This document shows, in pieces, positions 6,738-54,812 of a DNA stretch of 64,000 nt. This DNA comes from Cordylochernes scorpioides (taxonomy: Eukaryota; Arthropoda; Arachnida; Pseudoscorpiones; Chernetidae). The position numbers and the translations under genes were made by a program. The notes under the pieces are model-generated. The model was not told the origin of the DNA, did no database searches, and was given only the letters and a program-made list of their open reading frames with translations. Each line of letters opens with the position of its first letter. Positions within the stretch are counted from its first letter, which is position 1. The DNA lies in the NCBI GenBank assembly GCA_030710605.1, contig CP092886.1:158208000-158271999 (forward strand), written 5' to 3'.

Positions 6738-8480
6738 ACGCCGTTACTGGGCAGAAATTGGATAAGAATTTTAAAAGCTGATTGGCCCAATTGCGTTTTT
6801 GATATCTGTAATAATATAAATGTAATTTCAAATTTAGAACTGTTTTTAGAAGCATATAAAAGAGTATTTGAAAATAAAGATTTACCAATTCAGGGCATTA
6901 AAGGTTCAATATCATTGAGGCCAAATGCAAAGCCCAATTTTTTTAAATTTAGACCAGTACCCTTTTCCATTAAAGAGAAGATAGACAAAGAACTAGACAG
7001 ACTTGAACAAAGTCAAATAATTGAAAAGGTTAATGCTAGTGATTGGTCTACGCCTTTAGTAACGGTAATAAAGTCAAATGGAGAACTACGTTTGTGTGGT
7101 GATTTTAAAAATACTTTGAATAATTGCATTGAAGATGAGAAATATCCATTACCTACTATAGAAACTATGTTGGGAAATCTAGGAGGAAACACGATTTTTA
7201 CCAAATTGGATCTCTCCTCCGCATATCATCAAATTGAAATGGATGAAGCATCAAAAATCTGCTAGTGGTATCTACCCATAGAGGACTTTACCGATATAAT
7301 AGATTGCCTTTCGGCATCAGTCCAGCTTCAGCCATTTTCCAGAGGTGTATGGACAGCCCTTTTCATGATGTTCCCAACACGGTGCTATACTTAGATGATA
7401 TTTTCATTGGTTCTAAAGATGAACAAGAACATTTAAGAATTTTAAAAATGATTTTCGATAAATTGAAAGAGATAAATTCCACCCTTAATAAAGAAAAATG
7501 CTAATTTTTAAAAAAAGACATTTGTTTTCTAGGTCATATTATAAATGAAGATGGTGTTAGACCAGATTCAAAGAAATTGGAAGCATTAGAAAGGTGTAAA
7601 AAGCCTTTCGACAAAACATCATTGAAGGGTTTTCTAGGGATGTTGAGCTTCTATTCAAAATACATACCTAATATGTCAACCTTAGCTGGTCCTCTTTATC
7701 AACTCCTAAAGAAGGACAATCGTTGGAAATGGTCTAGCCAATGCGAAAAGGCATTTCTGAATTTGAAGTTAACTTTATTAAATTCCCAGGCGCTTATTCA
7801 CTATTCAATGAAGCTTCCATTAACTTTAACCTGCGATGCATCTGCCTATGGCATAAGTGGGGTCTTGTGTCGTATTGTGGAAGGGGAAGAGAAGCCAATC
7901 ACCTTTGTTTCCAGAACATTGTCAAGTGCTGAAGCCAAATACTCTCAGACTGAGAAAGAAGCACTTGCTATTGTGTTTGCAACTTCCAAACTGAGACAAT
8001 ACTTGTTTGGGAGAAAAATTGTGTTAAAGAGTGATCATAAAGCTTTAACGACTGTTTTTGCAAACAAAAGACTTCTTCCGCCATTAATTGCAAATCGCTT
8101 GCATTGGTGCGCTTTAGAGTTGTCAAANNNNNNNNNNNNNNNNNNNNNNNNNNNNNNNNNNNNNNNNNNNNNNNNNNNNNNNNNNNNNNNNNNNNNNNNN
8201 NNNNNNNNNNNNNNNNNNNNNNNNNNNTTTCGATTTCGATATTAGATATACAAATAAAGATACCATGCTCTGTGCGGATGCATTTTCAAGACTTCCACTT
8301 GAGGAAATTAATTCAAGGGAAAACAACATTGATTGGGTGACACCTGATATATCATTTTTAAATGTAACTCCATTGGACCACCTCATTATTGAAGAAGAAA
8401 CCAATAAAGATCCGGTTTTAAATAAGCTCAATGAATATCTATTAGAAGACCCTCAGTTAGCAAAAAGGATGAAACAATGA
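6738..8480 (+). pseudogene. Gypsy-B reverse transcriptase and RNase H
   Basis: Ordered motifs are seen: LLGRNWI; WSTPLVTVIKSNGELRLCGDF (RT motifs 1-2); FTKLDLSSAYHQIEM (catalytic Asp); YRYNRLPFGISPASAIFQ; VLYLDDIFIG (YxDD, about 7387-7417); FLGHIINEDGVRPD; then RNase H with TCDASAYGISGVL, SQTEKEALA and KSDHKAL. Breaks are at 7263 (stop and frame change) and 7502 (stop). The RNase H end is cut by the N gap (8128-8227), after which FRFRYTNKDTMLCADAFSRLP resumes and ends at 8480. Confidence 0.8.
8128..8227. other. Assembly gap (100 N)
   Basis: Exactly 100 N, the conventional placeholder for a gap of unknown size, lies inside the Gypsy-B RNase H coding region. The flanks are the expected neighbouring protein segments, so the true gap is probably small. 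Confidence 0.98.
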
Positions 8481-18830: not shown

Positions 18831-18835
18831 AATAT

Positions 18836-19027
18836 TGTCGTGTTCTACGACAAGAATTAACACGAGACGATTTCACACTAAAGAAAACTCTAACTTTATT
18901 CATCTTTTGACCTATATATAGATATCGCGCTTCTCGCGGATATACAAATCTACCATCCTTTAAAAGAAAGTATGTAAAAATATACGAAACAAATCAATAT
19001 CATGCAAATGTCGCGAGGTATGCGACA
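18836..19027 (-). repeat. 3' LTR of element D
   Basis: Nearly identical to 22398-22589. On the minus strand it reads TGTCGCATACC...AACACGACA with TATA (about 18913-18922 on plus) then AATAAA (plus 18897-18902). Confidence 0.92.
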
Positions 19028-19047
19028 GACTCCCCCTCCATGACCTC
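19028..19047 (-). promoter_or_regulatory. Polypurine tract of element D
   Basis: The minus strand reads GGAGGGGGAGTC directly before the TGTCGC start of the 3' LTR. Confidence 0.8.
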
Positions 19048-19147
19048 TCATCACTCCTGTGATGGGACTCCGGGTGGTCTATGATGAAATGGTCCTCCGG
19101 CCACTTGGTGATGGTCATATCCTGCTTCCAGTTGCTGGGGGTCGAGG

Positions 19148-22066
19148 TTACATCAATGATTTCTGTCCCTTGCTCCCCAGTACTAGACTCCTTAGGGGTT
19201 CTTTTGTAGTTTCCATTCGAATTTCTTGTACATTATCTTCCATATCTTCCAACGATATTCTGAAGCAGTTCTCGTAAAGGAAATTTTGTTGGCTAATAAG
19301 AAACTTCCACCTCGAAGGCTCATCTTGTGAATAGCGTAGAATCTCCATTGTTAGTAGGTATAGGACTATCTTTAGAGCCATCTCCATCTCGTGATTCAGC
19401 TGCAATAATTGGTCACAATCACTTTGCAAAAAGGAAATTACATATTTATTCTCGATTTTAGGCAAACTATAGGAATGGCCATCGACAGACTTCTTCACAT
19501 AAATTAATTTGATTTTTGAATCCAATTTCATAAGTTCGGACTTATTCTCAATATATTCAAAATCACAATACAAAGCCAATTTCTTAAGTGGCGTAGTAAG
19601 CACTGGATCCAAACTAGCAACACACACTTTGGAATACAAAGAAAACCCATAGATATCTGAGGCCGTTTTGTACATTTTTCGAAGGAGTTTACCGGGAGAA
19701 TGGTAAGCATCTTGTTCAACATCAGAATATAGTTTCCTGCAGATATTTTTACGAGCCAATACCCTGTAATTCCACTCTGAAACACCCTTATAGTCCAGCA
19801 TATTCTCTTCCACCCCAACAGATCGACTATCTGGAGAGCTCATCTTTAACTCCTTAATGAATTCAGTATGTATTTCACAAGCAGAGTTAAATTCTCGCAT
19901 TTCATTATGGGTCCAAATTAGCTGAGAAACATTCTCGCAAAAAACATTCGGATTAGGATTATCATTCTTTACAAGTCGAGATATCTCAAAATCTTTCAAC
20001 TTGGCAATGCAGTTGTTGGTTGGGATTTCATAATTCTCTCCATATTCAGGATGAAAAAAGATAAAATGAGATAAATTCAAATCATGTAAATCCAAACGTT
20101 TTAGCGCTTCTCTAGTCTGGTTACACCACATCATACTACGATCGTGCTTGAAAACATGCTGGTAAAAAACAGAAGGTTCGTCTTCATTGCCAACGAATAA
20201 CATGGGATTAGTCCACTTAGGAATCATGTCATATAAATGTCCTATAGATGTTGGTTTACCTACGTCTTTAAGATATGCCAAATCTTTTAAGATTTGAATC
20301 AAACCCTCATACAGTTGTAGACATGTAGTTACTCTTGGCAGTTCAGGTAGTGTTGCACGAAGTTCCAAACTCATATTTATCACTTCAAAGTAGAGTCCAC
20401 TCAGCATAAATAGATTCTTTCTTGAATACTCAATTGGACATGGTCTCTTTCCATATTTACTAATCATCCTTTGTCTATAATCTATATCCTTAATACACCT
20501 GGCATTCCCAAAATCGATTACTTTAGCAATATATCCAAGAGTTGGGATCTTAATCTTTCTTGAAGCTACTTCATATTTGATTAGTTTCTCTTCTGTTTCT
20601 GCAACTAGAACATTGTTAATATGAAAATCATCATGTAAAAGTTCAATTTCCTCTTCACCAATTGCAAAAACTATACAAATCTGGCGAAATAATACTAATA
20701 AATCCTCACATGAAAATCTCGATTTGTTAGCCGTTCCGAGAGTTTTTCCTCCATATTCCATTAGGAAAACAAAATAATTTTTTCGTTCTCCTTCACAATA
20801 GTAAGGCCATGGTTTTCCTTTTTCAAATATATTTTTGAGAAGCCTAAACGTCTTCTCAGTATCTTTAACAAGCATAAAGGAACATAAATTGATCTGACCA
20901 TTTTTTAGGGTTCTTAAAGAATTGTAGATGGCCAATTTATTTCGTAAATCATCAATGTCATATTCCTCAAATTCTTCAGCAGTAGATTGTCCCCATGAAC
21001 GTCTTTTTAAATTCAATCGTTCAATTCTATAAATAGTTGAGAACTTGTCGCTTGATAAGACTTCACCATAGCAAATACATTGGACACCTTTTCCTACATA
21101 TTTCATTCTTTTTCCTTCGAAAATATCAGCGAAGGTTACAAAAGCATTATGTACGGATGCTGTTAGCAATTCCGCAGGTCCTTCAGCTTCTCTTCTGAAT
21201 CCACTTTCTATCTCTGAAATTTGCATCTGGCTGAATTCTTTAGCATAAATCCAAACTTTTTGGCAGCGTGTTAATTTCTTTAATATTAACAAACGAGGTC
21301 TTGCGAGACTGCATTTATCGAAATCACCTATTCCATGGCAGATAATAGCATCACATATTCCTAATTTCATATGTCTTTTTTCACCGCTTGTTTTAAACGA
21401 ATAAATTCCTTTTATGAGAGTTTCCAATAGAGTATCGTAACACGGTAGCTCTCTCAAAGCTCTTTTCAATAACTTCATGTCTTCGGTGATGGTGTTTCTG
21501 TTATTCCAGGTGGTAGGGAGGCTCAACTCCTTTGGAGGTGCTTCTTCGCCGGTACCAGGCTTTGGTTCTTTTTTGCCAGTACCAGACTCCTTAGAAGGTT
21601 CTTTTTCTCCAGCATGGGTGTCAGGGACATCAATAATGCAATCAGAAAGTTTTTCTGTATTCTCTGAATCTTTGTCAATTTCCCCGGCTTGAGTGTTAGG
21701 AACATCAATAACGCAATCAGAACTTTCTTCTGTATTCCCTGTATTATTGTCAATTTCCCCAGCTTGAGTGAAAGTGGCATCATCAAGATCACAAAGTCCT
21801 GCATTATCTGAATCAATACCAACACTAACATCTACCTCTTTCGTAATAGACTCTGCACTATCAGTTCCTATAACTGACTTTTTTTCAACTTCAGCCTTTT
21901 CACTTTCATCTGCTTCAACGGACTTTTTATCAACTTCGGCTTTTTCACTTTCTTCCGTTTCTACAACTGAATTTTTCTCGACTTCGGCTTTTTCATTTTC
22001 TTCAACAACAGACTTTTTCTCAATTTGAGCTTTTTCACTTTCTTCAGCAACAGAATTTTTCTCCAT
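19148..22066 (-). CDS. Haspin-like protein kinase carried by an LTR element
   Basis: This is a 972-codon open frame. Residues 1-80 are acidic heptad-like repeats (SEKAEVEKKSV type) and residues 100-180 are further acidic repeats (NTQAGEID, SDCVIDVP). A kinase-like domain spans about 300-600: glycine-rich VGKGVQCICYGEV (324-336), hinge LMEYGGKTL (435-443), catalytic loop HDDFHINNVLV (478-488; D480 and N485 in the places of the catalytic Asp and Mg-binding Asn), a beta-hairpin YEVASRKIKIP, then VIDFG (516-520). The EYGG hinge, H-x-D-x-H-x-x-N-V-L loop and IP..G before the DFG-like motif match haspin (histone H3 Thr3 kinase) better than typical kinases. A clear VAIK lysine is not obvious (IYRIER near 345-350). 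Residues 600-972 match nothing I know. The upstream frame (22090-22395) is probably its true N-terminus. Confidence 0.75.
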   Translation of the reverse strand: MEKNSVAEESEKAQIEKKSVVEENEKAEVEKNSVVETEESEKAEVDKKSVEADESEKAEVEKKSVIGTDSAESITKEVDVSVGIDSDNAGLCDLDDATFTQAGEIDNNTGNTEESSDCVIDVPNTQAGEIDKDSENTEKLSDCIIDVPDTHAGEKEPSKESGTGKKEPKPGTGEEAPPKELSLPTTWNNRNTITEDMKLLKRALRELPCYDTLLETLIKGIYSFKTSGEKRHMKLGICDAIICHGIGDFDKCSLARPRLLILKKLTRCQKVWIYAKEFSQMQISEIESGFRREAEGPAELLTASVHNAFVTFADIFEGKRMKYVGKGVQCICYGEVLSSDKFSTIYRIERLNLKRRSWGQSTAEEFEEYDIDDLRNKLAIYNSLRTLKNGQINLCSFMLVKDTEKTFRLLKNIFEKGKPWPYYCEGERKNYFVFLMEYGGKTLGTANKSRFSCEDLLVLFRQICIVFAIGEEEIELLHDDFHINNVLVAETEEKLIKYEVASRKIKIPTLGYIAKVIDFGNARCIKDIDYRQRMISKYGKRPCPIEYSRKNLFMLSGLYFEVINMSLELRATLPELPRVTTCLQLYEGLIQILKDLAYLKDVGKPTSIGHLYDMIPKWTNPMLFVGNEDEPSVFYQHVFKHDRSMMWCNQTREALKRLDLHDLNLSHFIFFHPEYGENYEIPTNNCIAKLKDFEISRLVKNDNPNPNVFCENVSQLIWTHNEMREFNSACEIHTEFIKELKMSSPDSRSVGVEENMLDYKGVSEWNYRVLARKNICRKLYSDVEQDAYHSPGKLLRKMYKTASDIYGFSLYSKVCVASLDPVLTTPLKKLALYCDFEYIENKSELMKLDSKIKLIYVKKSVDGHSYSLPKIENKYVISFLQSDCDQLLQLNHEMEMALKIVLYLLTMEILRYSQDEPSRWKFLISQQNFLYENCFRISLEDMEDNVQEIRMETTKEPLRSLVLGSKGQKSLM

Positions 22067-22089
22067 TTGAGCTTTTTCACTTTCTTCAA

Positions 22090-22395
22090 CTACAACGGAT
22101 TTTTCTCAACTTCGGCAAGTAAGTCCATGATCAAACGTTGCTGCTTCACCATCGTCCTAATTTCAGATTTTTCAAGACTTCTTAGAGACTCAAAATTTGC
22201 CTCTTCTTTCTCTTCTTCTTCGTCTACCTCTTCAACAACTGAATATCTGAGATATTCTTTTCGTTCATAGTAATCCTCTTCGCTGAGATATTCTTCCTTC
22301 TCTTTTCCACAAATAATGCTCATCATCAAGCTTTGTTGCTTCACCATTTCCCTGAGGAGACTTTGCATGGTCGATCCTGACCGGGGCTGCGCCAT
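22090..22395 (-). CDS. N-terminal frame of the element D kinase protein
   Basis: The first ATG after the 5' LTR (22393-22395) overlaps the PBS and opens a 101-codon frame (MAQPRSGSTMQSLLREMVKQ...). It is Glu/Lys-rich with two copies of a MVKQQxLxM motif, likely coiled coil. It ends LAEVEKNPL then stop (22090-22092), but the repeat continues in the -1 frame of the downstream ORF. A one-base lesion inside the acidic repeat, near 22100-22107, is therefore the simplest reading. A programmed -1 shift at the A5 run there is possible but does not fit the canonical heptamer. Confidence 0.65.
   Translation of the reverse strand: MAQPRSGSTMQSLLREMVKQQSLMMSIICGKEKEEYLSEEDYYERKEYLRYSVVEEVDEEEEKEEANFESLRSLEKSEIRTMVKQQRLIMDLLAEVEKNPL
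22376..22394 (-). promoter_or_regulatory. Primer-binding site of element D
   Basis: The minus strand reads TGGCGCAGCCCCGGTCAGG three bases after the 5' LTR. The TGG start matches the CCA tail of a tRNA. The donor tRNA cannot be named by eye. Confidence 0.65.
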
Positions 22396-22397
22396 AT

Positions 22398-22589
22398 TGT
22401 CGTGTTCTACGACAAGAATTAACACGAGACGATTTCACACTAAAGAAAACTCTAACTTTATTCATCCTTTGACCAATATATAGATATCGCGCTTCTCGCG
22501 GATATACAAATCTACCATCCTTTAAAAGAAAGTATGTAAAAATATACGAAACAAATCAATATCATGCAAATGTCGCGAGGTATGCGACA
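22398..22589 (-). repeat. 5' LTR of element D (promoter-bearing)
   Basis: Minus-strand order is TATA-like AATATATAGA/TATATA, then AATAAA, then the PBS. One of the two differences from the 3' LTR lies at the edge of the TATA region (CCAATATATAG versus CCTATATATAG on plus). Confidence 0.92.
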
Positions 22590-22594
22590 AATAT

Positions 22595-28270: not shown

Positions 28271-28322
28271 TTTGAAAGATAAGTAAAATTTCAAATATCA
28301 ATTAAGCCTAACACGTTGAAAA

Positions 28323-31300
28323 ATGGCCTCGAGTACCGGGAATAGTTTGCAGCCATTTGTGCCTGGAACAAACCCATCAGAAGCATGGGGTAAATGGAAA
28401 AAGAGATTCCAAATGTTTTACATAGCCACAGAAATAGATAAAAAATCTATTCCAAGACAAAGGGCTATTCTACTCTATAATATTGGTGAGTTAGCCCTAG
28501 ATATATACTCTACATTTAAAATACAAGAAACTGATGCCTCTCCGACTGTTCCGGATATACTTGAACTGTTTGATGGACACTTTAAACCATATAAAAACAC
28601 AACCTATAAGAGGTACCAGTTTTTTACAACGGAACAAGGGGAGAATCAGAATTTTGATGACTATGTAACTGAATTGAAAAATAAAAGCATGGACTGCGAA
28701 TTTGGAGAGCTTGCAGATTCCTTGGTCAGAGATAGAATTATAATTGGAATTAAAGACAAAGCTTTAAAAGAAAGGATGCTACAAGATCCTGATCTTTCTT
28801 TAGCTAAAGCCATAGACTTGGGAAGAGCTACTGAAACTTCTAGACAACAAGTAAAAAATATAACTAGAGAAGATGTTGATTTACATTCTATAAAATATAA
28901 AAAGCAATATAAAAAGAATTTCAAATATCCAGTTGGTAGAAAACCTAATGTATCTGAGGAACATCCTAATGCAAAGGTTTGCCAAAATTGTGGTTCCAGA
29001 CATCCATATGGTAAATGTTTTGCATATGGTAAAATATGCAATTCATGTAAAAAACCAAACCATTTTGCTAAAATGTGTAGGAACAGAGTGCATATGTTGG
29101 AGGAAAGAGCGGAAGAGGAAGAAGAAATGTGTCTTCAATACCTATCCCTAGATAGCATTACTGGTCTAGAGTGGACTAAAATAATCTTGGTGGAGAATAA
29201 TTCAGTTAATTTTAAATTAGACACAGGAGCACAGGTGAACATCCTGCCATTGGATACCATTAAAAATTGGCAAAATAAACCCTGCATATATCCAACTGGG
29301 ATTGCGGTTTATTCATATACAGGAGAAAAAGTACCAATAAGGGGCAAATGCAAGGCTTCATGTACCTCTGGGAAAAAATCTGAAATCCTTGAATTTCTAG
29401 TCGTGGATTTGCCAGCTCCACCAATTTTGGGATTGGCAGCGTGTAAAAAATTAGAGCTGATATTAAAAGTAGAGTCGTTGGAACAGGACCATACTAGGAC
29501 AAAGATGGATGCTTCACCTACAAAGATAATAGAGTCCTACAGAGATGTCTTTGATGAGATCGGAACACTCCCTGGAGAGCATTCTGTGATCCTGAGAGAA
29601 AATGCACATCCAAGAATTCAGTTAGCTCGCCGAATTCCGTTTGCACTGAAAAAACCAGTTGAGATGGAGCTAAAATCGATGGAGGAACAAAAGATCATCT
29701 CAAAGGTAGACCAACCAGCAGAGTGGGCACACCCGATGGTAATCATTAAGAAACCAAATGGAAAGGTTCGTATCTGTATGGACCCTAGAGAGCTAAATCC
29801 ATGGATTAAAATGGAATATCGTCAACTTCCTGCCCCTGAAGGCATCATTGCTGATATCACAAAATCACCCATCTATACAGTACTTGATGCTAAGTCAGCC
29901 TTTTGGCAAATCAAGTTAGACGAAAAGTCATCTAGCCTTTTAACAATGGCTACACCTTATGGGTATTACAGATTCCATCGGTTACCTTTTGGTATTTGCA
30001 GCGCTCCAGAAGTTTTCTATAAAAAAATGCAAAGTATGTTTACAGGAATTGAAGGAGTAAAAGTATACATGGATGATATAATAATATACGGAAACTCCCT
30101 CACGGAGCACAATAGTAGACTGATTACGGTTTTGGAAATTGCTAGAAAAAATAATTTAAAGTTTGAATTCAATAAAATGCAACTGGCCCAAGAAAAAGTT
30201 AAGTTCATTGGACATGAGATATCCAAGAATGGCATCTCTGCAGATCCATCTAAATTAGAAGCAATACAAAAAATAAAAAGACCAATGGACAAGACATCTC
30301 TTCAAAGATTTTTGGGAACTGTGAACTATCTAGCTAAATTCATGCATAATCTGGCAGATAAAACTGTCTTGTTAAGACAACTCCTAAAAAAGAATACCCT
30401 GTGGACATGGAATGAGGCTATAGAAAAAGAATTCATTGAGCTGAAAAATTTGGTATCAAATCCTCCAGTTCTTGGCCTCTTTGACCCCCATCGGAAGGTA
30501 ACACTTTCAGTGGACGCTAGTCAACATGGGCTTGGGGCTGTCTTGATGCAAGAGGGAAGACCCATCGCTTTTGCATCCGCATCCTTGAATAACACTCAGA
30601 AAAAATATGCCCAGATTGAAAAGGAGCTCTTAGCTCTCTGGTATGGATGCCAAAGATTTAACTATCATTTGTATGGAAGAAAGTTCACAGCCCAGACGGA
30701 TCATAAACCCTTGTTGGCTATACTAAAAAAGCCACTAGAGGAATTATCTCCAAGACTTGAAAGACTGGTCTTGAAATTGATGCGATATGATTTTAATTTA
30801 GAATATGTACCAGGAAAAGTGATTCACACCGCAGACACTCTATCTAGAGATTCAATTTCAGAGGAAACCATCGACACCTCAGATCTGGATCTCCAGAACA
30901 CCATTATGACTCTAAATCTGAAGGTGACCACTAAAAGATACCAGGAAATTCTCAGAGATATGGAGTCAGATGAAGAAATGATAAAATTAAGGGATCATAT
31001 ACTGAATGGGTGGCCTATTCATAAGAAAAGTGTGGACTATGCTGTTAAGCCCTACTGGCATTGTAAAGAAGAACTATATATATGGAAAGACCTGATTTGT
31101 AGAGGACAAAGACTTGTCATCCCTAAAGTCCAAAGGGAAAGCATCTTGCAAACACTACACATGTCTCATCAAGGGATCTCTGCTTGTAAAAACAGAGCAC
31201 ATGAAGCTATTTATTGGCCTGGACTGGATAGAGAAATAGAAGAGATGGTTTATAAGTGTAGAATTTGTCAAGAATCACAACCTTCGCAAAGGAAAGAACC

Positions 31301-32291
31301 ACTTATACCTCACGAAATAGCAGACTACCCTTGGCAAAAAGTAGCTATTGATTTCTTCTATCTAGACCAATCTGTATTCATAATAATAGTAGACTACTAC
31401 AGCAGCTTTCCTGAAGTCATCAAGGTAGCATCAACTTCAGCAAAAGAGATTCTACCAGTTTTGAAATCTACCTTCGCAAGACATGGGATTCCAGAGATCA
31501 TCATCACTGATAATGGACCACCATTTACATCACAAGACTTTACTAATTTTACAAATGAATGGGACATAGAACATAAAACCTCTAGCCCAGGATACCCAAA
31601 ATCAAACGGATTAGTGGAGAGGATGGTGCAAACAGTAAAGAAGCAACTTAAGAAATGCCGTCAAGACAACACTGATCCTTATATGTGTTTAATAGCCCTG
31701 AGAACAACTCCGTCAAATAATCTACCGTCCCCAGCTCAGATGCTAATGGGAAGAAACTTGAGAACCTTGATCCCAATGAAAACCACAAAGCTAAAACCTG
31801 CTTTCATTAGCACGGAAAACATTCTACAGCAGAAGAGGGAAAATCAATATAAGATGAAAGAATATTACGACCGAAATGCCAAAATACTTCCTAAAATGAG
31901 TTCTGGTGAACAGGTAAATGCCAAAACTAGCAATGCCTGGAGACCAGCTACCATCATTGGAGAAGCCAACCAGCCTCGATCATACATCATTCAGAACAAC
32001 GAGGGCCGAATGTTAAAACGGAACAGAGTTCACCTACGGCCCAGAAGTTATCCTGTTGGACAGAGAAGGAGCAGCCAGTCATCGCCCCAATTGGATCCAG
32101 CCCCCTCGACATCATCGGAGTCCAGTGGTCAAAGGGAACCAGGAGAATTTCCCCGCCTGAACCTCAGTCCTGAAGAGTTGGCCCCATCCACTTCAACTCC
32201 CATAGGAAACTACAATGAAGGAGGCACTGCCTACACCACTAGAAGTGGACGTGTGGTAAAGCCTCCGAAAAGATTCGACCCCGGACTTTAA
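28323..32291 (+). CDS. Gypsy-E gag-pol polyprotein
   Basis: 1322 residues in one frame. Capsid (1-~210) has YKRYQFFTTEQGENQNFDDY near 100. Zinc knuckles start at C220 (CQNCGSRH...) and C239 (CNSCKKPNHFAKMC). Retropepsin has LDTGA with catalytic D300. In RT the YMDD catalytic pair is D584/D585, preceded by YRFHRLPFGICSAPEVF. RNase H has SVDAS (D731), an acidic QIEKELLA and TDHKPL (D793). Integrase has an HHCC finger (HMSHQGI...CRICQ, ~946-985) and D1010 (AIDFFY), D1063 (ITDNGPP), E1099 (NGLVERM), with 35 residues between the last two. The tail RSGRVVKPPKRFDPGL is usual for this group. All catalytic residues are present. The ATG is the first in frame, 71 bases after the LTR. Confidence 0.95.
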   Translation: MASSTGNSLQPFVPGTNPSEAWGKWKKRFQMFYIATEIDKKSIPRQRAILLYNIGELALDIYSTFKIQETDASPTVPDILELFDGHFKPYKNTTYKRYQFFTTEQGENQNFDDYVTELKNKSMDCEFGELADSLVRDRIIIGIKDKALKERMLQDPDLSLAKAIDLGRATETSRQQVKNITREDVDLHSIKYKKQYKKNFKYPVGRKPNVSEEHPNAKVCQNCGSRHPYGKCFAYGKICNSCKKPNHFAKMCRNRVHMLEERAEEEEEMCLQYLSLDSITGLEWTKIILVENNSVNFKLDTGAQVNILPLDTIKNWQNKPCIYPTGIAVYSYTGEKVPIRGKCKASCTSGKKSEILEFLVVDLPAPPILGLAACKKLELILKVESLEQDHTRTKMDASPTKIIESYRDVFDEIGTLPGEHSVILRENAHPRIQLARRIPFALKKPVEMELKSMEEQKIISKVDQPAEWAHPMVIIKKPNGKVRICMDPRELNPWIKMEYRQLPAPEGIIADITKSPIYTVLDAKSAFWQIKLDEKSSSLLTMATPYGYYRFHRLPFGICSAPEVFYKKMQSMFTGIEGVKVYMDDIIIYGNSLTEHNSRLITVLEIARKNNLKFEFNKMQLAQEKVKFIGHEISKNGISADPSKLEAIQKIKRPMDKTSLQRFLGTVNYLAKFMHNLADKTVLLRQLLKKNTLWTWNEAIEKEFIELKNLVSNPPVLGLFDPHRKVTLSVDASQHGLGAVLMQEGRPIAFASASLNNTQKKYAQIEKELLALWYGCQRFNYHLYGRKFTAQTDHKPLLAILKKPLEELSPRLERLVLKLMRYDFNLEYVPGKVIHTADTLSRDSISEETIDTSDLDLQNTIMTLNLKVTTKRYQEILRDMESDEEMIKLRDHILNGWPIHKKSVDYAVKPYWHCKEELYIWKDLICRGQRLVIPKVQRESILQTLHMSHQGISACKNRAHEAIYWPGLDREIEEMVYKCRICQESQPSQRKEPLIPHEIADYPWQKVAIDFFYLDQSVFIIIVDYYSSFPEVIKVASTSAKEILPVLKSTFARHGIPEIIITDNGPPFTSQDFTNFTNEWDIEHKTSSPGYPKSNGLVERMVQTVKKQLKKCRQDNTDPYMCLIALRTTPSNNLPSPAQMLMGRNLRTLIPMKTTKLKPAFISTENILQQKRENQYKMKEYYDRNAKILPKMSSGEQVNAKTSNAWRPATIIGEANQPRSYIIQNNEGRMLKRNRVHLRPRSYPVGQRRSSQSSPQLDPAPSTSSESSGQREPGEFPRLNLSPEELAPSTSTPIGNYNEGGTAYTTRSGRVVKPPKRFDPGL

Positions 32292-32971: not shown

Positions 32972-33123
32972 GCGCGGAATAAAAGAAGAAAATAATTAAA
33001 TAAAGCAAGTAAGTGAATATTCAAATATTTCTTCCTATTGACGACGCCATAAGCTCGCAACTAGGCTTAAGAAATTACCCCACGTTTTGAAAATTTTCTG
33101 TAATAGGGTAATATCGTTTCAAA

Positions 33124-33981
33124 ATGTCGGATAGGTTTAAATATATGGTAAATAAGTTTGATGGGACAAATTATCAAATTTGGAAATACCAAATAGAAAT
33201 AATTTTACGTCAACAAGGAGTATTGGATTTAGTGGAAGGCATAGATGTTAAGCCTGAAGAAGAATCCCAAAAGGTAGCTTGGAATAAAAGGAATGATAAA
33301 GCAATGGTCATAATCTCGACGGCCATTGTTTACAAGCAATTGGAACATCTTATTACATGTGATACTGCTCAGAAACAGTGGACAAGGCTCAAGTCCATTT
33401 ATGAGCAGATATCTACTACAAGTTTGCTGGCTATTCAACAACAATTTTATAGCTATAAAATGAATGAAAAGGATGCTATGTCAAATCACATATCCAAAAT
33501 TGAAGGGTTGATTAAACAGCTCTGTGAATTAGGAGAAAAAGTGAGTGAAGCTGCTTTCATGGCAAAAGTACTTGGATCTTTGCTATCTAAATATGCTCAT
33601 TTTTTAACTGCTTGGGATTCTGTCACACAAACAGAGCAAACAAAAGAAAATTTGATTGCAAGACTTATTCAAGAAGAAATAAGGTTGGATCAGAAAGATC
33701 AACAAGATGATGCAACAGCTTTTAAGGCAACAGCTAACTACAATTGGAAGAAAAACAAAACATGCAACTATTGCAAAAGACCTGGTCATTTTTGGGCAGA
33801 ATGTAGAAATAGACTGAGAGACCAAAAGCAGAAAAATAAGAACTCTCTTCAACCAGAAAACAGAGACATGAATAGATCAAGAAAACATGAAGACAGTGGA
33901 AGGAGTGCATTCATTTGTGAAAATGAGGTTTTGTCTTCAAAGATGTGTGGTACCTCGACAGTGGTGCATCCGAGCACATGA
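33124..33981 (+). CDS. Copia-F Gag
   Basis: 285 codons. It starts MSDRFKYMVNKFDGTNYQIW, the conserved Copia Gag opening (FxGxNYxxWK). The UBN2-like core includes WTRLKSIYEQISTTSLLAIQQQ and GLIKQLCELGEKVSEA. One CCHC knuckle, CNYCKRPGHFWAEC, is at about residues 215-229. The frame runs past the expected Gag-Pol junction and stops at 33979-33981. Pol continues in another frame overlapping the end, implying a small indel near 33920-33940. Confidence 0.88.
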   Translation: MSDRFKYMVNKFDGTNYQIWKYQIEIILRQQGVLDLVEGIDVKPEEESQKVAWNKRNDKAMVIISTAIVYKQLEHLITCDTAQKQWTRLKSIYEQISTTSLLAIQQQFYSYKMNEKDAMSNHISKIEGLIKQLCELGEKVSEAAFMAKVLGSLLSKYAHFLTAWDSVTQTEQTKENLIARLIQEEIRLDQKDQQDDATAFKATANYNWKKNKTCNYCKRPGHFWAECRNRLRDQKQKNKNSLQPENRDMNRSRKHEDSGRSAFICENEVLSSKMCGTSTVVHPST

Positions 33982-34475
33982 CAAATCGAATAGACTGGTT
34001 TTCAGAATTCAATGAACTTGATGAAGAATACCAAGTCAAGCTAGGAGATAACCATGTCATCAATGCTTCTGGAAAGGGAACCATTTTGATCTCATGTTAT
34101 GTTGACGGTGAATGGACAAAAGGAATATTAAAGAATGTGTTATATGTGCCAGAAATTCATAAAAATCTCTTCTCTGCCGAAGCAGCAACAAATTTGGGAA
34201 ATAAAATAATAACAGAAAAGGAAACCTGTAATATCTTCATGAATGACAAGAAAGTTGCCTGTGGAACTAAAGGATCAAATAACTTGTACACAATGCTCTT
34301 CAAGGTAACACATGAAGCTGAAGCCAATACTGCAAATGCGTACTCTCTCACATGGTGGCATCGTCGATTAGGACACATCAATGTGGACACAATCAGGATG
34401 ATGGCCAAAAATGGACAGTTTAGTGATCTTAAGCTGAGAGAAGGAAAAGGATTTCTTTTGCGAGGCCTGTAAGTA
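33930..34475 (+). pseudogene. Copia-F protease and integrase zinc finger
   Basis: VWYLDSGASEHMTN carries the Copia aspartic protease motif DSGA. Later WHRRLGHINVDTIRMMAKNG begins the GAG-pre-integrase/HHCC finger. The frame stops at 34470-34472, but CEACKYGKQQCQSF in the next frame completes the finger, so a frameshift lies near 34450. Confidence 0.8.
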
Positions 34476-36141
34476 CGGAAAACAACAATGCCAATCATTC
34501 CGCTCCATCGAGAATAAACAACAGTATGAGGTAGGTGAATTAATTCATTCTGACCTTTGTGGCCCAATGGAATCTCAGTCATTAGGAGGTTCAAATTACT
34601 TTCTTCTTTTTAAAGATGATCAAAGTGCATACAGAGTTGTTTACTTTATAAGGCATAAAAGTGATGTGTTCACTAAATTCAAAGAATTTGATGCCCTAAT
34701 TAAAAATCAGTTTGGCAGATCAGTTAAAATTTTCAGAACTGATAATGGAACTGAATATGTCAATCAATCGTTTTTAGATTATTTAAGAAAGAATGGCATA
34801 ATTCATGAAAGATCTGCTCCTTATACGCCCCAACAGAATGGCTTTGTTGAAAGAGATTTAAGGACTATTTTAGGACTTAGTCGATCAATGCTACATGACT
34901 CAGGGTTAGAAAAGAATCTGTGGGCAGAAGCTGTTAACACAGCTGTCTATGTTCTTAATAGAACACTTTCAAATAACGAGAAAACTCCTCTTGAACTTTG
35001 GAGTGGCAGAAAGTCAACTTTCAAACATTTCAAAATCTTTGGTTCTGAAGCCTATGCTAATATACCTAAACATTTTAGGTCAAAATGGGATAGTAAAACT
35101 AAGAAAATGATATTCGTTGGATATGAGCATACTTCTAAGAATTATAGACTTTATGATCCTAAATCCGGACAGATTGTAGTTTGTAGAAATGTAACTGTAA
35201 GAGAACCCAATCCTGTTGACACATGCGACACTCAGATGAAAATTGCACCTATATCAATTGAGAGTGAGGGATCCTCGCAACATCAAGATGAGGATTCTAC
35301 TCAGGAGGAAACGTGTGGGCCAACTCACTCATACAATCTTAGACCTAGAAAGACATCACAGTGTGATGTTGCTAGTGCATGGATAGCTGAAAGCCTAGAG
35401 CCAGTTACTTATGAGGAAGCAATGTCTAGTAAAGATAAAATAAATTGGGAAATTGCTATGAATGAAGAGAAACAGGCTCTTATTAAAAATAAAACATGGG
35501 AATTGATGGACCTTCCTGATAATGCAAAAGCTATAGGATGTAAATGGATTTTCCGCATAAAAAGAAAAGGCAATGGTGAAATTGATCGTTATCGAGCAAG
35601 ACTGGTGGCCAAAGGCTTCAGCCAAAGAAGAGGTATAGACTATAAAGAGACTTTTGCCCCAGTTGTAAGATATGACTCAGTCAGAGTCTTGTTAGCCTTA
35701 GCTACTGCCATGGACATGGAAATTATGCAATTCGACATAAAGACTGCTTTTCTTAATGGTGATCTTGACGAAGATATCTATATGCAAATTCCAGAAGGAA
35801 TAGAAGTTGAAAATAAAAACTTGGTTTGTAAACTAAAGAAAAGTTTATATAGACTAAAACAATCACCCAGAATCTGGAATGAGAAATTCACATATTTCTT
35901 AAAACAATTTCAGTTAACCCAATCACAAGCTGATCCATGTGTGTTCTACCAAACTAAGACTGATGCGAAAATATTCTTAGCTCTTTATGTAGATGATGGT
36001 ATAATGATGAGTACTTCTAACAACCTGTTGAAGGAATTAGCCCAATATCTGTCCTCACATTTTGAAGTCACCATCTCCACGCAAAACCAGTTTGTAGGCT
36101 TAGAGATAGATAAAGACAAAGAAAAGGCCTCATATTTCTAA
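34460..36141 (+). pseudogene. Copia-F integrase core and reverse transcriptase
   Basis: Integrase D-D-E: HSDLCGP (about 34546), FRTDNGTEY (about 34735) and PQQNGFVERD (about 34830-34855). RT: GCKWIFRIKRKGNGEIDRYRA begins the RVT_2 domain, followed by KTAFLNGDLDEDIYM and the YVDDG catalytic motif (about 35985-36000). It ends at a stop 36139-36141 within RT; homology goes on in another frame. Confidence 0.88.
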
Positions 36142-36963
36142 GTCAAACCAGTTATATAAAAAGAATACTTGATAAATTCAACATGACTTCATGCAATTCT
36201 TCAGGGACTCCTGTTGACCCCAACATGAAATTGACAAGAGAGAACATCAATGATACTCATGACATGCATAACGTTCCATATGCTGAAGCTATTGGATGTT
36301 TGATGTTTCTTGCCGTCTGTACAAGACCTGACATAGCTTTCGCCGTTAACAATCTAAGTAGATTCATGGCAGCTCCTGTTCTCCCACATTGGAATGCTCT
36401 GAAGAGAATCTTCAAATATTTGAAAGGAACTTTGGACTCAGGCATCCTATACAAAAGAAAAGATGTGATTAAATTAATTGGATACTCTGATTCTGACTTT
36501 GCTGGTGACATTGATACACGACGGAGCACTTCAGGATACATCTTCCTACTTGCAGGAGGACCAGTCACTTGGACTAGCCAAAGACAATCAGTTGTGGCTT
36601 TATCTACCACAGAAGCCGAATACATTGCAGCAAGCATGGCTTCAAGGGAAGCTGTATTGGCTTAAACTACTGATCAAGGAACTGACACCCAATGATAATC
36701 CTGTTCCTTTGATGAATGACAACCAGAGTGCTATTAGACTGATCTTGAACCCAGAATTTCACAAGCGCACTAAACATGTTGATGTCAAGTTTCACTTTAT
36801 ACGTGAACAGCACAAAATGAAAATCATCAAGATATTCAACTGTCCAACAGAAGAACAATTGGCTGATCTTCTCACAAAGGCTCTACCAGCAACACGCTTT
36901 AAAATACTTTTTGAAGACATTGGAATGTCTGCCTTGCTTTCAAGTGGAAGTGTTGAAGAGTGA
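36142..36963 (+). pseudogene. Copia-F RT end and RNase H
   Basis: YAEAIGCLMFLAVCTRPDIAF, DSDFAGDIDTRRSTSGYIF and STTEAEYIAA lie in the frame open from 36183 to 36665. QSAIRLILNPEFHKRTKHVDVKFHF and EEQLADLLTKALP lie in the frame ending 36963. The two are joined by a frameshift near 36640-36660. Together they give the complete Copia RNase H. Confidence 0.85.
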
Positions 36964-48803: not shown

Positions 48804-50777
48804 TTAGATGAAAGGAATCATGTCTTTATATCTTGATGATGGCTTGACGACTCTTCCACTCCTGGTGATCACGGGTTCCTTGGTAGTCGGCAAGGGTGGA
48901 GAAACCTCTGGTGGCAACTGGTGAAGAGCCTCGGCATCAAGTCTATCTGAAACAACTGGGTTAAATGTAGACCCTGTTCTACTTGAACTTGGTCGGTTTA
49001 AAGAAGTGTCCTTGTCTTGGTTTGAGGAATTATCATCTGGTATTTGTACATCAGAAGAGTTGAGGTGTTCAATTCTTGTTGAATCTGAACTAAGATTTTC
49101 CTGGCTCTCTTCTGGAATCAAGTCAGAAATGCCTTGATTGGTCTCTTGAGTAGGAACATGTTTCAAATGTTTAGCATTTCTATGAATTATTTTCCCATTT
49201 TTAGTGTTGACTAATTTAAAAGAATTTATTGAAGTGTTTTCAAGAATGACATGATGTTCTGATCTGAAATTTGAATCAAGTTTTCCATTATTTGGATTTG
49301 CCACATAAACTAAATTTCCAATATCAAAATTATGAGGACTAGCTTTCCGAATTATATCATTATATGTTTTCATTTTTTCTTTGTAGACCATATTGAATTC
49401 TTTGATGTTGGATTCATCTTCTTCTGCATCATTAACAAGTGAGCTTAATTTAGTTTTGATTTCTCTTGAAAATAATAGGAATGCTGGAGTCTTTCCTGTA
49501 GATCTGTTTGGAGTAGTTCGGTAAGACATTAAAATTCTGGATAAATCTTCTTTCCAATCTTTCCCTTCTTCAGAACTTGAATTGAATTGTTTCTTTAGAA
49601 ATCTATGGAATCTTTCTATCTTCCCATTACTTTTTGGGTAATAGGGTGAGGCTTTGATGTGCCTGATTCCACATTCTTTTAAAAATCTTTCCATTGATGT
49701 ACTTACAAACTGTAAGCCATTATCTGTTACAACTTCATGTGGATAACCATGTCTTGCAAAAATCTCCATCAATTTTTTAATAATTGTCTTGCTGGAAATG
49801 TCTTCTATTATCATTGCTTCAGGATATGAAGAATAGTAGTCGATCACTGTTAAAACATAATGATGGCCAATTGGACCAACTATGTCAATTCCAAGTTTCA
49901 TCCAAGGTTTTGATGGGAACGGAACTATTTGCAATGGTTGATCATTTATCAATGGTTGATTCCTTACACAAATTGGACAGTTTCTAATCAAATTTTCAAT
50001 GTCAAAGTCCATGTTTATCCAAAAATATTTTTCTCTTAACAGTTGTTTGGTTCTTGTCATTCCTTGATGTGTTTCATGTGCAATTCTCAAGACTCTCTTT
50101 ATTAGTTTTGAAGGTAGCAAAATTCTACTTCCTTTCAAGATAAGATTATCAAAAATTGAGAGTTCATCTTTAAACTTATAAAAACATTTGAATTCTTCAT
50201 TCAAAGGATATGGCCAAACTCCCTTTTGAACCATATCTTTCAGTTTTTGAAACAAAGGATCTTGCTCTGTACAAACTTTTATCTCTTTCAAAGACAGTGC
50301 TTGAAGCTCTTCAGAAGTAATGGATAAGACTTTATGAACATAGTCCTCCAGCCATTTTTCATCACTTGTGTTAGAAAGAGGTTGTCTTGAAAATATTTCT
50401 GCAATATTTTGCTTTCCTTGAATGAATTCAATTTCAAAGTCATATGGTTGTAATCTCCAACTCAATCTTTGAATTCTTGGAGGTAAAACAGCTCCATTTT
50501 TAGGATTCAGCATATAGATTAGAGGTTTGTGATCTGTTTTTAACACAAATTTCCTTCCCCAAATATAGGTGTTAAAATGTTCAATTGCCCATACACATCC
50601 CAATGTCTCTTTTTCTATTTGTGAATATCTTTTTTCAGTATCAGTTAAGGATCTGCTGGCATATGCAATGGGTCTTTTAATGCCATTTTGTTGTGTTTGT
50701 ATTAATACTGCTCCAAGACCAATAGGGCTTGCATCTGTGATTAATTCAGTTGGTGAGTTCAAGTTGTAATATGCCAA
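48804..50777 (-). CDS. Gypsy-H RNase H and integrase
   Basis: 657 codons open. RNase H starts ELITDASPIGLGAVLIQ, with YSQIEKETLGCVWA and KTDHKPLIYML. Integrase: HETHQGMTRTKQLLREKYFW and CPICVRNQ (HHCC); D-D-E in LGIDIVGP, VVTDNGLQFVS and KSNGKIERFHR. The tail ends TRSGRVVKPSSRYKDM. All catalytic residues seem intact. The apparent start Met is internal: the frame continues upstream (DLKESLTKEPCL) to the J2 poly-A tail at about 50811. Confidence 0.88.
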   Translation of the reverse strand: MAYYNLNSPTELITDASPIGLGAVLIQTQQNGIKRPIAYASRSLTDTEKRYSQIEKETLGCVWAIEHFNTYIWGRKFVLKTDHKPLIYMLNPKNGAVLPPRIQRLSWRLQPYDFEIEFIQGKQNIAEIFSRQPLSNTSDEKWLEDYVHKVLSITSEELQALSLKEIKVCTEQDPLFQKLKDMVQKGVWPYPLNEEFKCFYKFKDELSIFDNLILKGSRILLPSKLIKRVLRIAHETHQGMTRTKQLLREKYFWINMDFDIENLIRNCPICVRNQPLINDQPLQIVPFPSKPWMKLGIDIVGPIGHHYVLTVIDYYSSYPEAMIIEDISSKTIIKKLMEIFARHGYPHEVVTDNGLQFVSTSMERFLKECGIRHIKASPYYPKSNGKIERFHRFLKKQFNSSSEEGKDWKEDLSRILMSYRTTPNRSTGKTPAFLLFSREIKTKLSSLVNDAEEDESNIKEFNMVYKEKMKTYNDIIRKASPHNFDIGNLVYVANPNNGKLDSNFRSEHHVILENTSINSFKLVNTKNGKIIHRNAKHLKHVPTQETNQGISDLIPEESQENLSSDSTRIEHLNSSDVQIPDDNSSNQDKDTSLNRPSSSRTGSTFNPVVSDRLDAEALHQLPPEVSPPLPTTKEPVITRSGRVVKPSSRYKDMIPFI

Positions 50778-50811
50778 GCATGGCTCTTTTGTTAGTGACT
50801 CTTTAAGATCC

Positions 50812-53340
50812 TTTTTTTTTTTTTTTTTTACTTATCCTTTTAGTCTAAATTAGACAAGATCTTGGAGGTCGTGCTCGTAGAGAAGCTCAAGAACTCTTCT
50901 TGGTTCTCTGTACAGGGATCTTTTGTCCTTTCCAATGCAATTTAGTAAATGTTGGGGAGTGGCCTCTTCGGTTTTGCACCTAGTGCACATGGGGAAGCTT
51001 TTGGCTCCCTCTTTATAGACTAGAGGGCGCAGGTGACCAGATTTCCATCTGGCCAACTGTGTCGATTCCCTTCTGTTTAGTTGGAGGGTCTGTTTTTTTG
51101 GGGTTTTCTGCCTGGTACCAAGAATGATGGAAACTATCTCTATGGTTCCTTATTAGTTGTAGTTTCAGTTTATTGATATGGTCCCTTGCTGAAAGATAGG
51201 TCTCGGAGTTCACCGCATCAGGATGTCCAGCTGCTCCTTCCTTAGCCAATCTGTCGGCCTCCTCATTTCCAGGGACTCCCACATGTGATGGAATCCATTT
51301 TAGACTTATTTTGGTATTTTTATTCAGTTTGTTGATTTCTGCAGCAATGTTTTTGAGGAGTCTGTCTTGTGAATAGTAGCAGTTTTTAATTGCAAAGATG
51401 GCGGCTTTTGAATCTGTATAAATTATTATGTTTTTAGTCTCGTTTTTCTCTACAAGTTTTAGAGCTTGTAGTATGGCTGTTAGTTCGGATCTGAAAACTG
51501 ACAAGTTCTTTGGGTTTTTGATTCTTCTTTTTATTTCCATACTATCTTTAAGGATGAGAACTCCACTGCCAGAGGAGCCATTCTCCACCAGTGAGCCATC
51601 GGTGTATATCTGTATGGTTTCTTTGTCTGCTTTTTCAATCCTCTCCATAGCGAGGCTCCTGAGTAGTCCAGGGTGGTCGGCCCTTTTGGAGCATTCTTGC
51701 TCTAGATCCAGGTTGTAGGAGATTTCTGGTCTTTCTTTATATGGTGCATATTGGTTCTGGGCATTTCTATTTCTCGTGCTGTTTGGTAGTAGTTCCCGGT
51801 AGGCTAGGTGCATTGGGCTAAGTCTTTTGAGTCTGGTTTTTGGTTTCCATTTTCGTATGAATTCTCCGGTTCTGTGTGATTTTGGTGCATTTACTCTCTT
51901 GTATATATAATCGGCTAAGCCGATTTTTCTCCGGTGTGTAAGAGGCAACAAGTTGGCCTCAATCTCTGCAATTTTGGTTGGACAGGTGTTTCTGAGTCCA
52001 CATATGATTCTTGCAGCACTGCTCTGTACCTGATCGATTTTATTCAGGTTGGTCTTGCTCGCCGTCTGCCACACTGGTTGGGCATATTCTAAGATTGGTC
52101 TGATAAGGGCCAGATATGTTTGGCGCAGAGTATCCCTATCTGCGCCCCATTCATATCCAGATATTCTTTTCAGAATGTTAAGTCTCTTTTTTGCTCTTAA
52201 CACTGTCTGGTTGATATGAGGTCCATAGGTCAGTGAGGGGTCTAAAGTGACTCCTAGGTATTTGGGTGTCCGAGAAAATTTTATTTGATTGTTGTCATAT
52301 TTGATATTTGGGGTCCATTTTTTAAGGTGGTTGTTTATTGTAAATACTCCTACTTCGGATTTATTAGGGTTTATAATTAATTTCATTTTTTCCGCAAAGT
52401 GTTGGAGTTCTTTCAGCGCCTTGTTTACATTTTTGTTTGCTTCCTTGAGATCTCTCTTTGAGGACCAGATGATTATGTCGTCGGCATAGAGAGCAAAGTC
52501 GCAGTATTTTGTGATTCTAGAGTCCATGTCATTCAGATAGATTGAGAATAGTAGGGGGCTTAGTATGGATCCCTGAGGGAGTCCCTGGAAGAGCCTGCCA
52601 GTTTTTGATAGTTGTTCTTTGAAGTTAACCTGGAAGGTCCTTCCGGTCAGAAAGGATCCAATCCAACCCATCATCTTCCCCCTTATACCTAGTTTGTCCA
52701 GCTTCTTAATTAACCTTTCTTTCCACACTCTATCAAAAGCCTGGCTTAAGTCTATAAAAGCGGCTATGGTAGACTTGGTTGGTTTACTTTGGAAGTTGTC
52801 TTTAATTTTCTGTGTGAAGTAGAAAATCTGGTCTACTGTGTTATGATATTTTTTGAAAGCTGCCTGCTGTTTTGTAAGTAACTTGTTTTTGTTTAGGAAG
52901 TATTGCATTCTATTTAGTATCATGCGCTCCATGAGTTTGCATGGCATGGAAGTTAGTGATATTGGTCTATAACTCTGTGGGTGGTTTTCTGTTTTTCCTG
53001 CTTTATGGATGGGGATTATGATTGCATGCTTCCATTCTTTAGGTAAGGTGCTGCTTGACCAGCTTAGATTAATTATGTGAAGGAGCTCTAAAATGGCGTT
53101 TGTTTCTAGGTGTTTTATCATTTTGGCTGATATGATGTCTGAACCTGGGGTTTTGTTATCATCTAATCTATTTATAGCTTCTTTTAGTTCATGAGGTAAA
53201 AATGGCTTGTGGAATAAGTCTTGGTGAGATGTTGTTTTGGCCTCATTTCTTATCTTTTTTGATATGTGAAGTACTTTCTTATCTTGCCTCGTAAAGTTTA
53301 GTTTGGAGATTTGTGTATAGTAATCAGCAAAGAGGTTTGA
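50812..53340 (-). mobile_element. J2: 5'-truncated I/Jockey-group non-LTR element inside Gypsy-H pol
   Basis: It ends on the minus strand with AAAGGATAAGT and an A18 tail (plus T-run 50812-50829). The 5' truncation point is near 53340, inside the linker before RT. The coding content (RT and RNase H) parallels J1 throughout. About 130 residues of Gypsy pol expected between YLDD and RNase H are missing, so insertion came with a target deletion or was followed by one. No clear TSD seen. Confidence 0.85.
50850..51056 (-). pseudogene. J2 C-terminal Cys/His end (frame-shifted)
   Basis: ARWKSGHLRPLVYKEG, CTRCKTEEATPQHLLNC and LLYEHDLQDLV match the end of J1 (LKSGHLRTM, CTKCNSQPATPRHIIDC, KLYKLDTLV). 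It is separated from the main frame by a 1-base shift near 51050. Confidence 0.85.
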
Positions 53341-54486: not shown

Positions 54487-54812
54487 TTTTTAGCACCACA
54501 TTCTTGTGCTGAATGTGTATCTAATCCACAGCGATAACATTTAGGCTTTGAGGCACCTGAAAATGATGGGGTACCTTGATTAGTGAATCTACCTTTGTTG
54601 AAATTATTAGCATTATAGTGCTTTTTAGGTTTATTTTGAACTCTATTTAGTGTTTGATCATTTTGAGGTTCAAGAAGTCTAATTTCTTTTCTAGAAATTT
54701 CTAACATTCTAGCAATATCAATGGTTTTTGACAGTGTCAAATTTTCTTGTTGCAACAATTTTTCTTTAAGTTTTTTGTTAATACATTTTTCAATTATTTG
54801 GTCTCTTATCAT
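54483..54812 (-). pseudogene. Gypsy-H Gag, C-terminal part with first zinc knuckle
   Basis: MIRDQIIEKCINKKLKEKLL matches the Gypsy capsid C-terminal domain. CYRCGLDTHSAQEC is a CCHC knuckle. It stops within an A6 run (TGA at 54483-54485) that overlaps the start of the pol frame, whose second knuckle follows at once. This could be a natural Gag-Pol -1 frameshift site. Confidence 0.75.

Follow-up and report, generated by a model that had tools for sequence, protein, structure and literature searches.

A Ty3-type retrotransposon lineage of Cordylochernes scorpioides that probably exchanged most of gag-pol for SRR1-like and haspin-like sequence

What is a haspin-like kinase sequence doing between the long terminal repeats (LTRs) of a retrotransposon? 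The question is raised by element D, which lies on the minus strand of positions 18836-22589 in a 64,000-nucleotide stretch of the pseudoscorpion Cordylochernes scorpioides (GenBank assembly GCA_030710605.1, contig CP092886.1, positions 158,208,000 to 158,271,999); this whole stretch is called the window. A first-pass annotation had described D as a retrotransposon whose only gene is a haspin-like kinase. In our reading, D is probably a member of a non-autonomous Ty3-type lineage in which coding sequence of cellular origin replaced most of gag-pol.

Under this reading, an SRR1-like domain and two haspin-like kinase domains, K1 and K2, would have been captured, and the new open reading frame (ORF) would run in frame after a retained Gag start, consisting of MAQP and a coil, and ahead of the element's own 3' end, which is likewise retained. 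RNA derived from the LTR would be packaged, reverse transcribed and integrated in trans by the Gag-Pol of a 4.3-kb sister element. From sequence comparison, such mobilisation in trans appears very probable, and it is quite likely that the domains derive from the large haspin-like and SRR1-like families of the host or from an unsampled relative.

Shared ends, a gag-pol sister and dispersed copies

The 4.3-kb sister, present at nine loci (L015-L022 and L031), is a Ty3-type (Metaviridae) gag-pol element in which Pfam finds protease, reverse transcriptase (RT), ribonuclease H (RNase H) and integrase, with no kinase or SRR1 match. Its gag-pol frame is uninterrupted (1307-1316 amino acids) in six of the nine copies, the LTR pairs show no difference in eight copies and one in the ninth, and the 5-bp flanks match in all nine, uninformatively in the four that lie in TA runs. 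Unlike the sister, D yielded no RT, RNase H or integrase, either in its ORF translations or with Pfam, and the earlier view of it as non-autonomous stands. PHROGs and NCBIfam searches returned nothing useful.

Element D and the sister have in common the LTR, 25 bases on the side of the primer-binding site (PBS) and 62 internal bases on the side of the polypurine tract (PPT). The sister's Gag coil, STMESILRTMANQQRLM, recurs close to the start of the kinase ORF, scoring 72 in the related locus L053 and 65 in L026, a close relative of D, against maxima of 52 and 50, respectively, over 500 shuffles each. At the other end, the L053 protein terminates in RPPGVPSQE where gag-pol has RPPGVPSRE. D thus has the features of a derivative of the sister's lineage: a common LTR, PBS start and PPT, as well as pieces left over from the parent ORF. 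The common ends, the Gag coil and the L053 terminus therefore argue that captured sequence replaced most of gag-pol.

The structure of D itself is that of an LTR retrotransposon, with paired TG...CA LTRs, a short target-site duplication, a PBS and a PPT. Apart from the duplication, its features are on the minus strand. The 5' LTR of 192 bp (22398-22589) contains a TATA-like TATATA and an AATAAA, and the 3' LTR (18836-19027) differs from it by two mismatches; copies of the duplication AATAT flank the element at 18831-18835 and 22590-22594. The PBS-like stretch TGGCGCAGCC... (22373-22394) is identical to the sister's PBS over its initial 10 bases and diverges after them; its partner may be of the tRNA-Ser type. 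The PPT is GGAGGGGGAG (19030-19039). The first-pass annotation had placed the element correctly and had given all of these marks, TATA and AATAAA included.

To place D in its genome, all 24 contigs (2.62 Gb) were searched. The LTR matched at 40 of the 40 places scored, these being the best 40 of 1402 candidates, and so it is not specific to this locus. Among 24 regions around such places, eight hold D-like kinase elements, nine the 4.3-kb sister and seven LTR matches only. These seven (L024, L025, L027-L030 and L032) have the same LTR and neither a second LTR nor a kinase body in the region, being solo LTRs or LTRs with other contents; L030 carries about 80 further bases. With D and the eight copies elsewhere, the set of kinase copies numbers nine, and matching 5-bp flanks in eight of them indicate independent insertions of a multi-copy element. 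The exception, L026, has a truncated 3' LTR, so its flanks cannot be compared; the flanks of L009 and L010 are uninformative because the insertions sit in TA runs. Insertions in TA runs occur at L009, L010, L016, L017, L020 and L031, and target duplications in this family are mostly AT-rich.

The LTR pairs of eight kinase copies differ by 0-3 bases, with two gap positions in addition in one pair. Such near-identity of the LTRs agrees with the recent movement proposed earlier. A search with K1 matched at all 150 places scored (the best 150 of 896 candidates), on all 24 contigs and at 61-100% identity, with a few elements yielding two rows. By hand count, 38 of the 150 rows have 900 amino acids or more without a stop, in a frame that may extend past the element; the listed frame lengths agree with the frames read for D, L026 and L011. 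Seventeen rows, L055's place included, all score 322.4 bits with 83% identity, which points to a recent burst in L055's subfamily, whose LTRs, where listed, are about 3.0 kb apart. A gag-pol relative does exist, yet the kinase ORF belongs to a dispersed multi-copy lineage and is not the local rearrangement that the first-pass annotation had named as refuting its view.

Could these be ordinary host genes, haspin-like and SRR1-like, that came to be flanked by LTRs through chance or segmental duplication? The host does hold 113 haspin-like match rows and many SRR1-like ones, and L012 and L013, which have common flanks, represent one insertion duplicated with its surroundings. Such genes would not be expected to show distinct 5-bp target-site duplications at independent insertions, a PBS and PPT in place, a Gag coil in frame and 150 K1 matches over all 24 contigs. 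Because the target-site duplications and the dispersal already contradict this explanation, we rejected it and give it hardly any credence.

Domains of the element and their host relatives

The kinase turned out not to be the sole gene content of D, which also holds a Gag-derived coil, an SRR1-like remnant and a second haspin-like remnant. The element's own ORF start (MAQP...) and the coil occupy 22090-22395, with the ATG overlapping the PBS; here a 1-nt deletion relative to L026 cuts the frame. A frame of 972 amino acids follows at 19148-22066. Its first part consists of acidic repeats and a D-rich linker (21524-22066), after which come the SRR1-like remnant (21221-21460), K1 (20279-21133), the K2 remnant (19955-20062) and a C-terminal region of unknown fold (19151-19954), which is common to L053 and for whose counterpart in L026 Pfam gave no match. 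The SRR1-like domain is fuller in L053 and the public gene model P0002, and K2 is fuller in P0002, P0003 and L053.

K1 has a protein kinase fold, closer to haspin than to other kinases by VIA-align structure comparison, and haspin is also the nearest sequence family. The kinase assignment made at first pass holds to this extent, with no placement outside the kinases; by Pfam it falls short, as K1 scores 20.9 bits against haspin PF12330, and the L026 fragment 23.5, where the curated cut-off is 25. Pfam does not list haspin for P0001 or for full-length L026, although L026 does match as a fragment from which the acidic repeats are absent. The SRR1 domain (PF07985, cut-off 24 bits) is found in L053 with E 8e-13 and 49.1 bits, over profile positions 15-133 of 172, and in P0002 with E 5e-12 and 46.5 bits; D has the remnant only, with no Pfam listing.

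Captured content beyond K1 is seen in two gene models, P0002 and P0003, and at locus L053, in the form of the SRR1 domain and of K2, which matches the window's K1 with E 9e-26 in a two-sequence comparison. L053 combines SRR1 and K2, without K1, in a single 1119-amino-acid frame. The LTRs on either side of this frame, of 186 bp, agree with each other at 99.5% and with those of D at about 83%. A tree that also takes in one beetle protein and 20 haspin-like ORFs of the host joins K1 with K2 in a single clade (100/99), separate from all the others and with long branches. This is consistent with either a duplication inside the element or a single, unsampled subfamily of the host.

The host haspin family is a very large expansion. 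All 113 rows are above the Pfam cut-off and most lack an internal stop; many are single open frames of about 320-450 amino acids in tandem clusters (e.g. L033-L052). The SRR1 search gave 150 scored matches (the best 150 of 236 candidates), element copies such as L053 among them. For six of the 113 haspin rows, a listed SRR1 row is no more than about 3.2 kb away, as judged by hand; these six, on C5 (43.2-44.1 Mb) and on C18, may go back to one ancestral neighbourhood. At L054, SRR1-like and haspin-like ORFs form a convergent pair, and pairs similar by position occur on C5. Among the 20 host ORFs compared, L047 comes closest, at 26-32% identity.

Beyond the genome, the element protein matched only Cordylochernes gene models (five of five hits) among 5.8 billion sequences, by a method that requires shared 5-residue words and is no proof of absence elsewhere. 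A second protein search under the same word requirement, with 8000 candidates scored, gave six hits, all Cordylochernes gene models. A host haspin-like ORF used as query found one beetle protein. The public gene models P0001-P0006 fuse element pieces with other transposon genes and bear names such as GSG2, TIGD7 and K02A2.6-like; sequence of this kind is misfiled in public gene models, one of them under the name GSG2.

Constraint, catalytic residues and possible roles

Has the captured sequence been kept for what its protein does? The frame was said to be kept open, and this is so in L026, where its 1205 codons begin at MAQP and end inside the 3' LTR, in L053, and over all 567 codons of the fetched part of L055. 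It is not so in the window copy, which is broken near both ends: relative to L026, it has lost one nucleotide each at ORF positions 291 and 3380 and, in frame, a further 180 nt.

The proposed comparison of dN/dS (omega) among copies gave a different answer at each level. Among eight copies of the window subfamily there are 89 singleton variants (19 synonymous, 63 non-synonymous and 7 stops), with omega 1.13, and two variants common to more than one copy, both synonymous, so that this subfamily stems from one source and has decayed neutrally. Between subfamilies, 624 codons show 22 synonymous and 32 non-synonymous changes, with omega 0.37, 0.45 and 0.51 (P 0.0004, 0.004 and 0.012) at kappa 1, 2 and 3. 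The sum joins non-overlapping parts (SRR1, K1 and C-terminal) of the comparisons of L026 with L055 and with L053, leaving out the Gag-like and acidic parts. With all blocks included, L026 against L053 gives omega 0.52 (P 0.018). This moderate signal suggests that the protein was probably under constraint while the element was mobile, without reaching significance for K1 by itself.

How might such a protein serve the element? Through the retained coil it would be tied to the helper Gag, and it may act as a scaffold or a pseudokinase that binds a partner, and not as a kinase of histone H3 threonine 3 (H3T3); that it is useful to the element in this way comes close to an even chance without quite reaching it. 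A more specific proposal is a tentative one: the lineage may have gained an accessory protein of its own, an SRR1/haspin-like pseudokinase tethered to Gag, acting for the element against or through the host's unusually expanded haspin-like and SRR1-like families and kept by selection over several subfamilies. If this is true, it would be an invertebrate counterpart of viral kinase capture.

H3T3 phosphorylation had been suggested at first pass, and a catalytically active protein could, by phosphorylating host chromatin, alter silencing or integration targeting. Haspin is nearest by fold and by sequence family, and K1 keeps the HRD Asp, the catalytic Asn and the DFG Asp in its catalytic loop HDDFHINNV (20609-20635) and IDFG motif (20507-20518). 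However, the beta3 Lys is Arg (IYRIE, 21020-21034) and HRD is HDD, so K1 lacks the full haspin set of Lys, HRD and DFG, and both catalytic activity and H3T3 phosphorylation are unsupported. In 13 aligned host haspin-like ORFs, by contrast, the Lys is kept in all 12 that have that column and the HRD Arg in all 13 (P0001, misaligned at beta3, was left out of the residue counts). We regard an active kinase as very unlikely.

A number of observations weigh against a conserved, captured protein. The frame is broken in seven of seven window-subfamily copies compared with L026, and the selection signal is modest: the two between-subfamily comparisons taken singly give P 0.005 to 0.09, the L026 row is common to both, K1 alone has omega 0.48 (P 0.10), and the Gag-like and acidic parts have omega 0.85 (P 0.51) and 0.72 (P 0.39). 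The replacement of the beta3 Lys by Arg and the loss of the HRD Arg affect K2 as well as K1, and the alpha-C Glu is replaced in the window copy. Domain sets vary by subfamily, D being without most of K2 and L053 without K1, and therefore no single enzyme is conserved. The 3' end of L026 is read in a different frame from that used by L053 and gag-pol, and identity to the window's K1 is no higher than 23-35% among the host haspins that were read.

Several of these points would suit passive cargo. Kinase and SRR1 functions would then be irrelevant and only an open frame would be kept, since packaging or RNA stability would benefit from translating the genomic RNA or from a Gag-tagged product. Domains shuffled, truncated or deleted in frame, replaced catalytic residues and the lack of significant constraint on K1 alone are what passive cargo would lead one to expect, as is the retention of the MAQP start and coil in L026, L053 and P0001. 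An open-frame rule alone predicts omega of about 1, however, and not the reduced values over the SRR1, K1 and C-terminal parts, and K1 still has its HRD Asp, catalytic Asn and DFG Asp. Passive cargo is a possible explanation that we would not favour.

Neighbouring elements and known systems

Other retroelements lie in the window. At 48804-54489 (minus strand), a Ty3-type gag-pol is seemingly interrupted, as judged by eye, by a non-LTR RT and RNase H, and both parts are read in one 1158-amino-acid frame (51013-54489). A Ty3-type gag-pol at 28320-32291 (plus strand) has an uninterrupted frame of 1323 amino acids, and a Copia-type element at 33112-36963 (plus strand) has gag and pol over several overlapping frames, again by eye. 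At 7505-8245 (plus strand), a run of unknown residues stands in frame inside a Ty3-type pol.

The lineage of D matters as an animal case in which most of gag-pol was probably swapped for a captured multi-domain protein that was amplified in open-frame subfamilies, with copies young enough for activity tests. In a genome with 113 haspin-like rows, it bears on whether captured kinases turn into working parts of selfish elements. Compared with haspin (GSG2) kinases of PF12330, K1 has the catalytic Lys and HRD Arg replaced and its Pfam score is under the cut-off. The L053 domain resembles SRR1 domain proteins (PF07985) in scoring above the cut-off; unlike them, it is fused to a kinase inside a retroelement, with only a remnant in D. 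The sister and D are alike in LTR, PBS start, PPT, Gag coil and 3' end.

LTR elements are already known to capture host genes (PMC13317346, PMC6431247). Maize Bs1 holds segments of proton ATPase, xylan endohydrolase and beta-1,3-glucanase genes (PMC13317346) and is, like D, an LTR element in which captured pieces of several host genes make a chimaeric gene. Unlike Bs1, the lineage described here is an animal Ty3-type one; its domains are haspin-like and SRR1-like, its many copies fall into several subfamilies, and its gag-pol helper can be recognised. Host-gene transduction by LTR elements and retroviruses, including onc capture, and large retrotransposon derivatives (PMC6431247) likewise place host sequence between LTRs, where it replaces much coding sequence and is moved in trans; unlike these, the lineage of D has a single long coding ORF joined to part of Gag, and comparison between its subfamilies shows signs of constraint. 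No description of this element was found in literature searched by title and the start of the abstract, a coverage that mostly leaves out subscription papers. The novelty seems to lie in bringing together an animal Ty3-type lineage, captured domains of two families joined to a piece of Gag, several subfamilies that show signs of constraint, and an intact-frame helper with near-identical LTRs.

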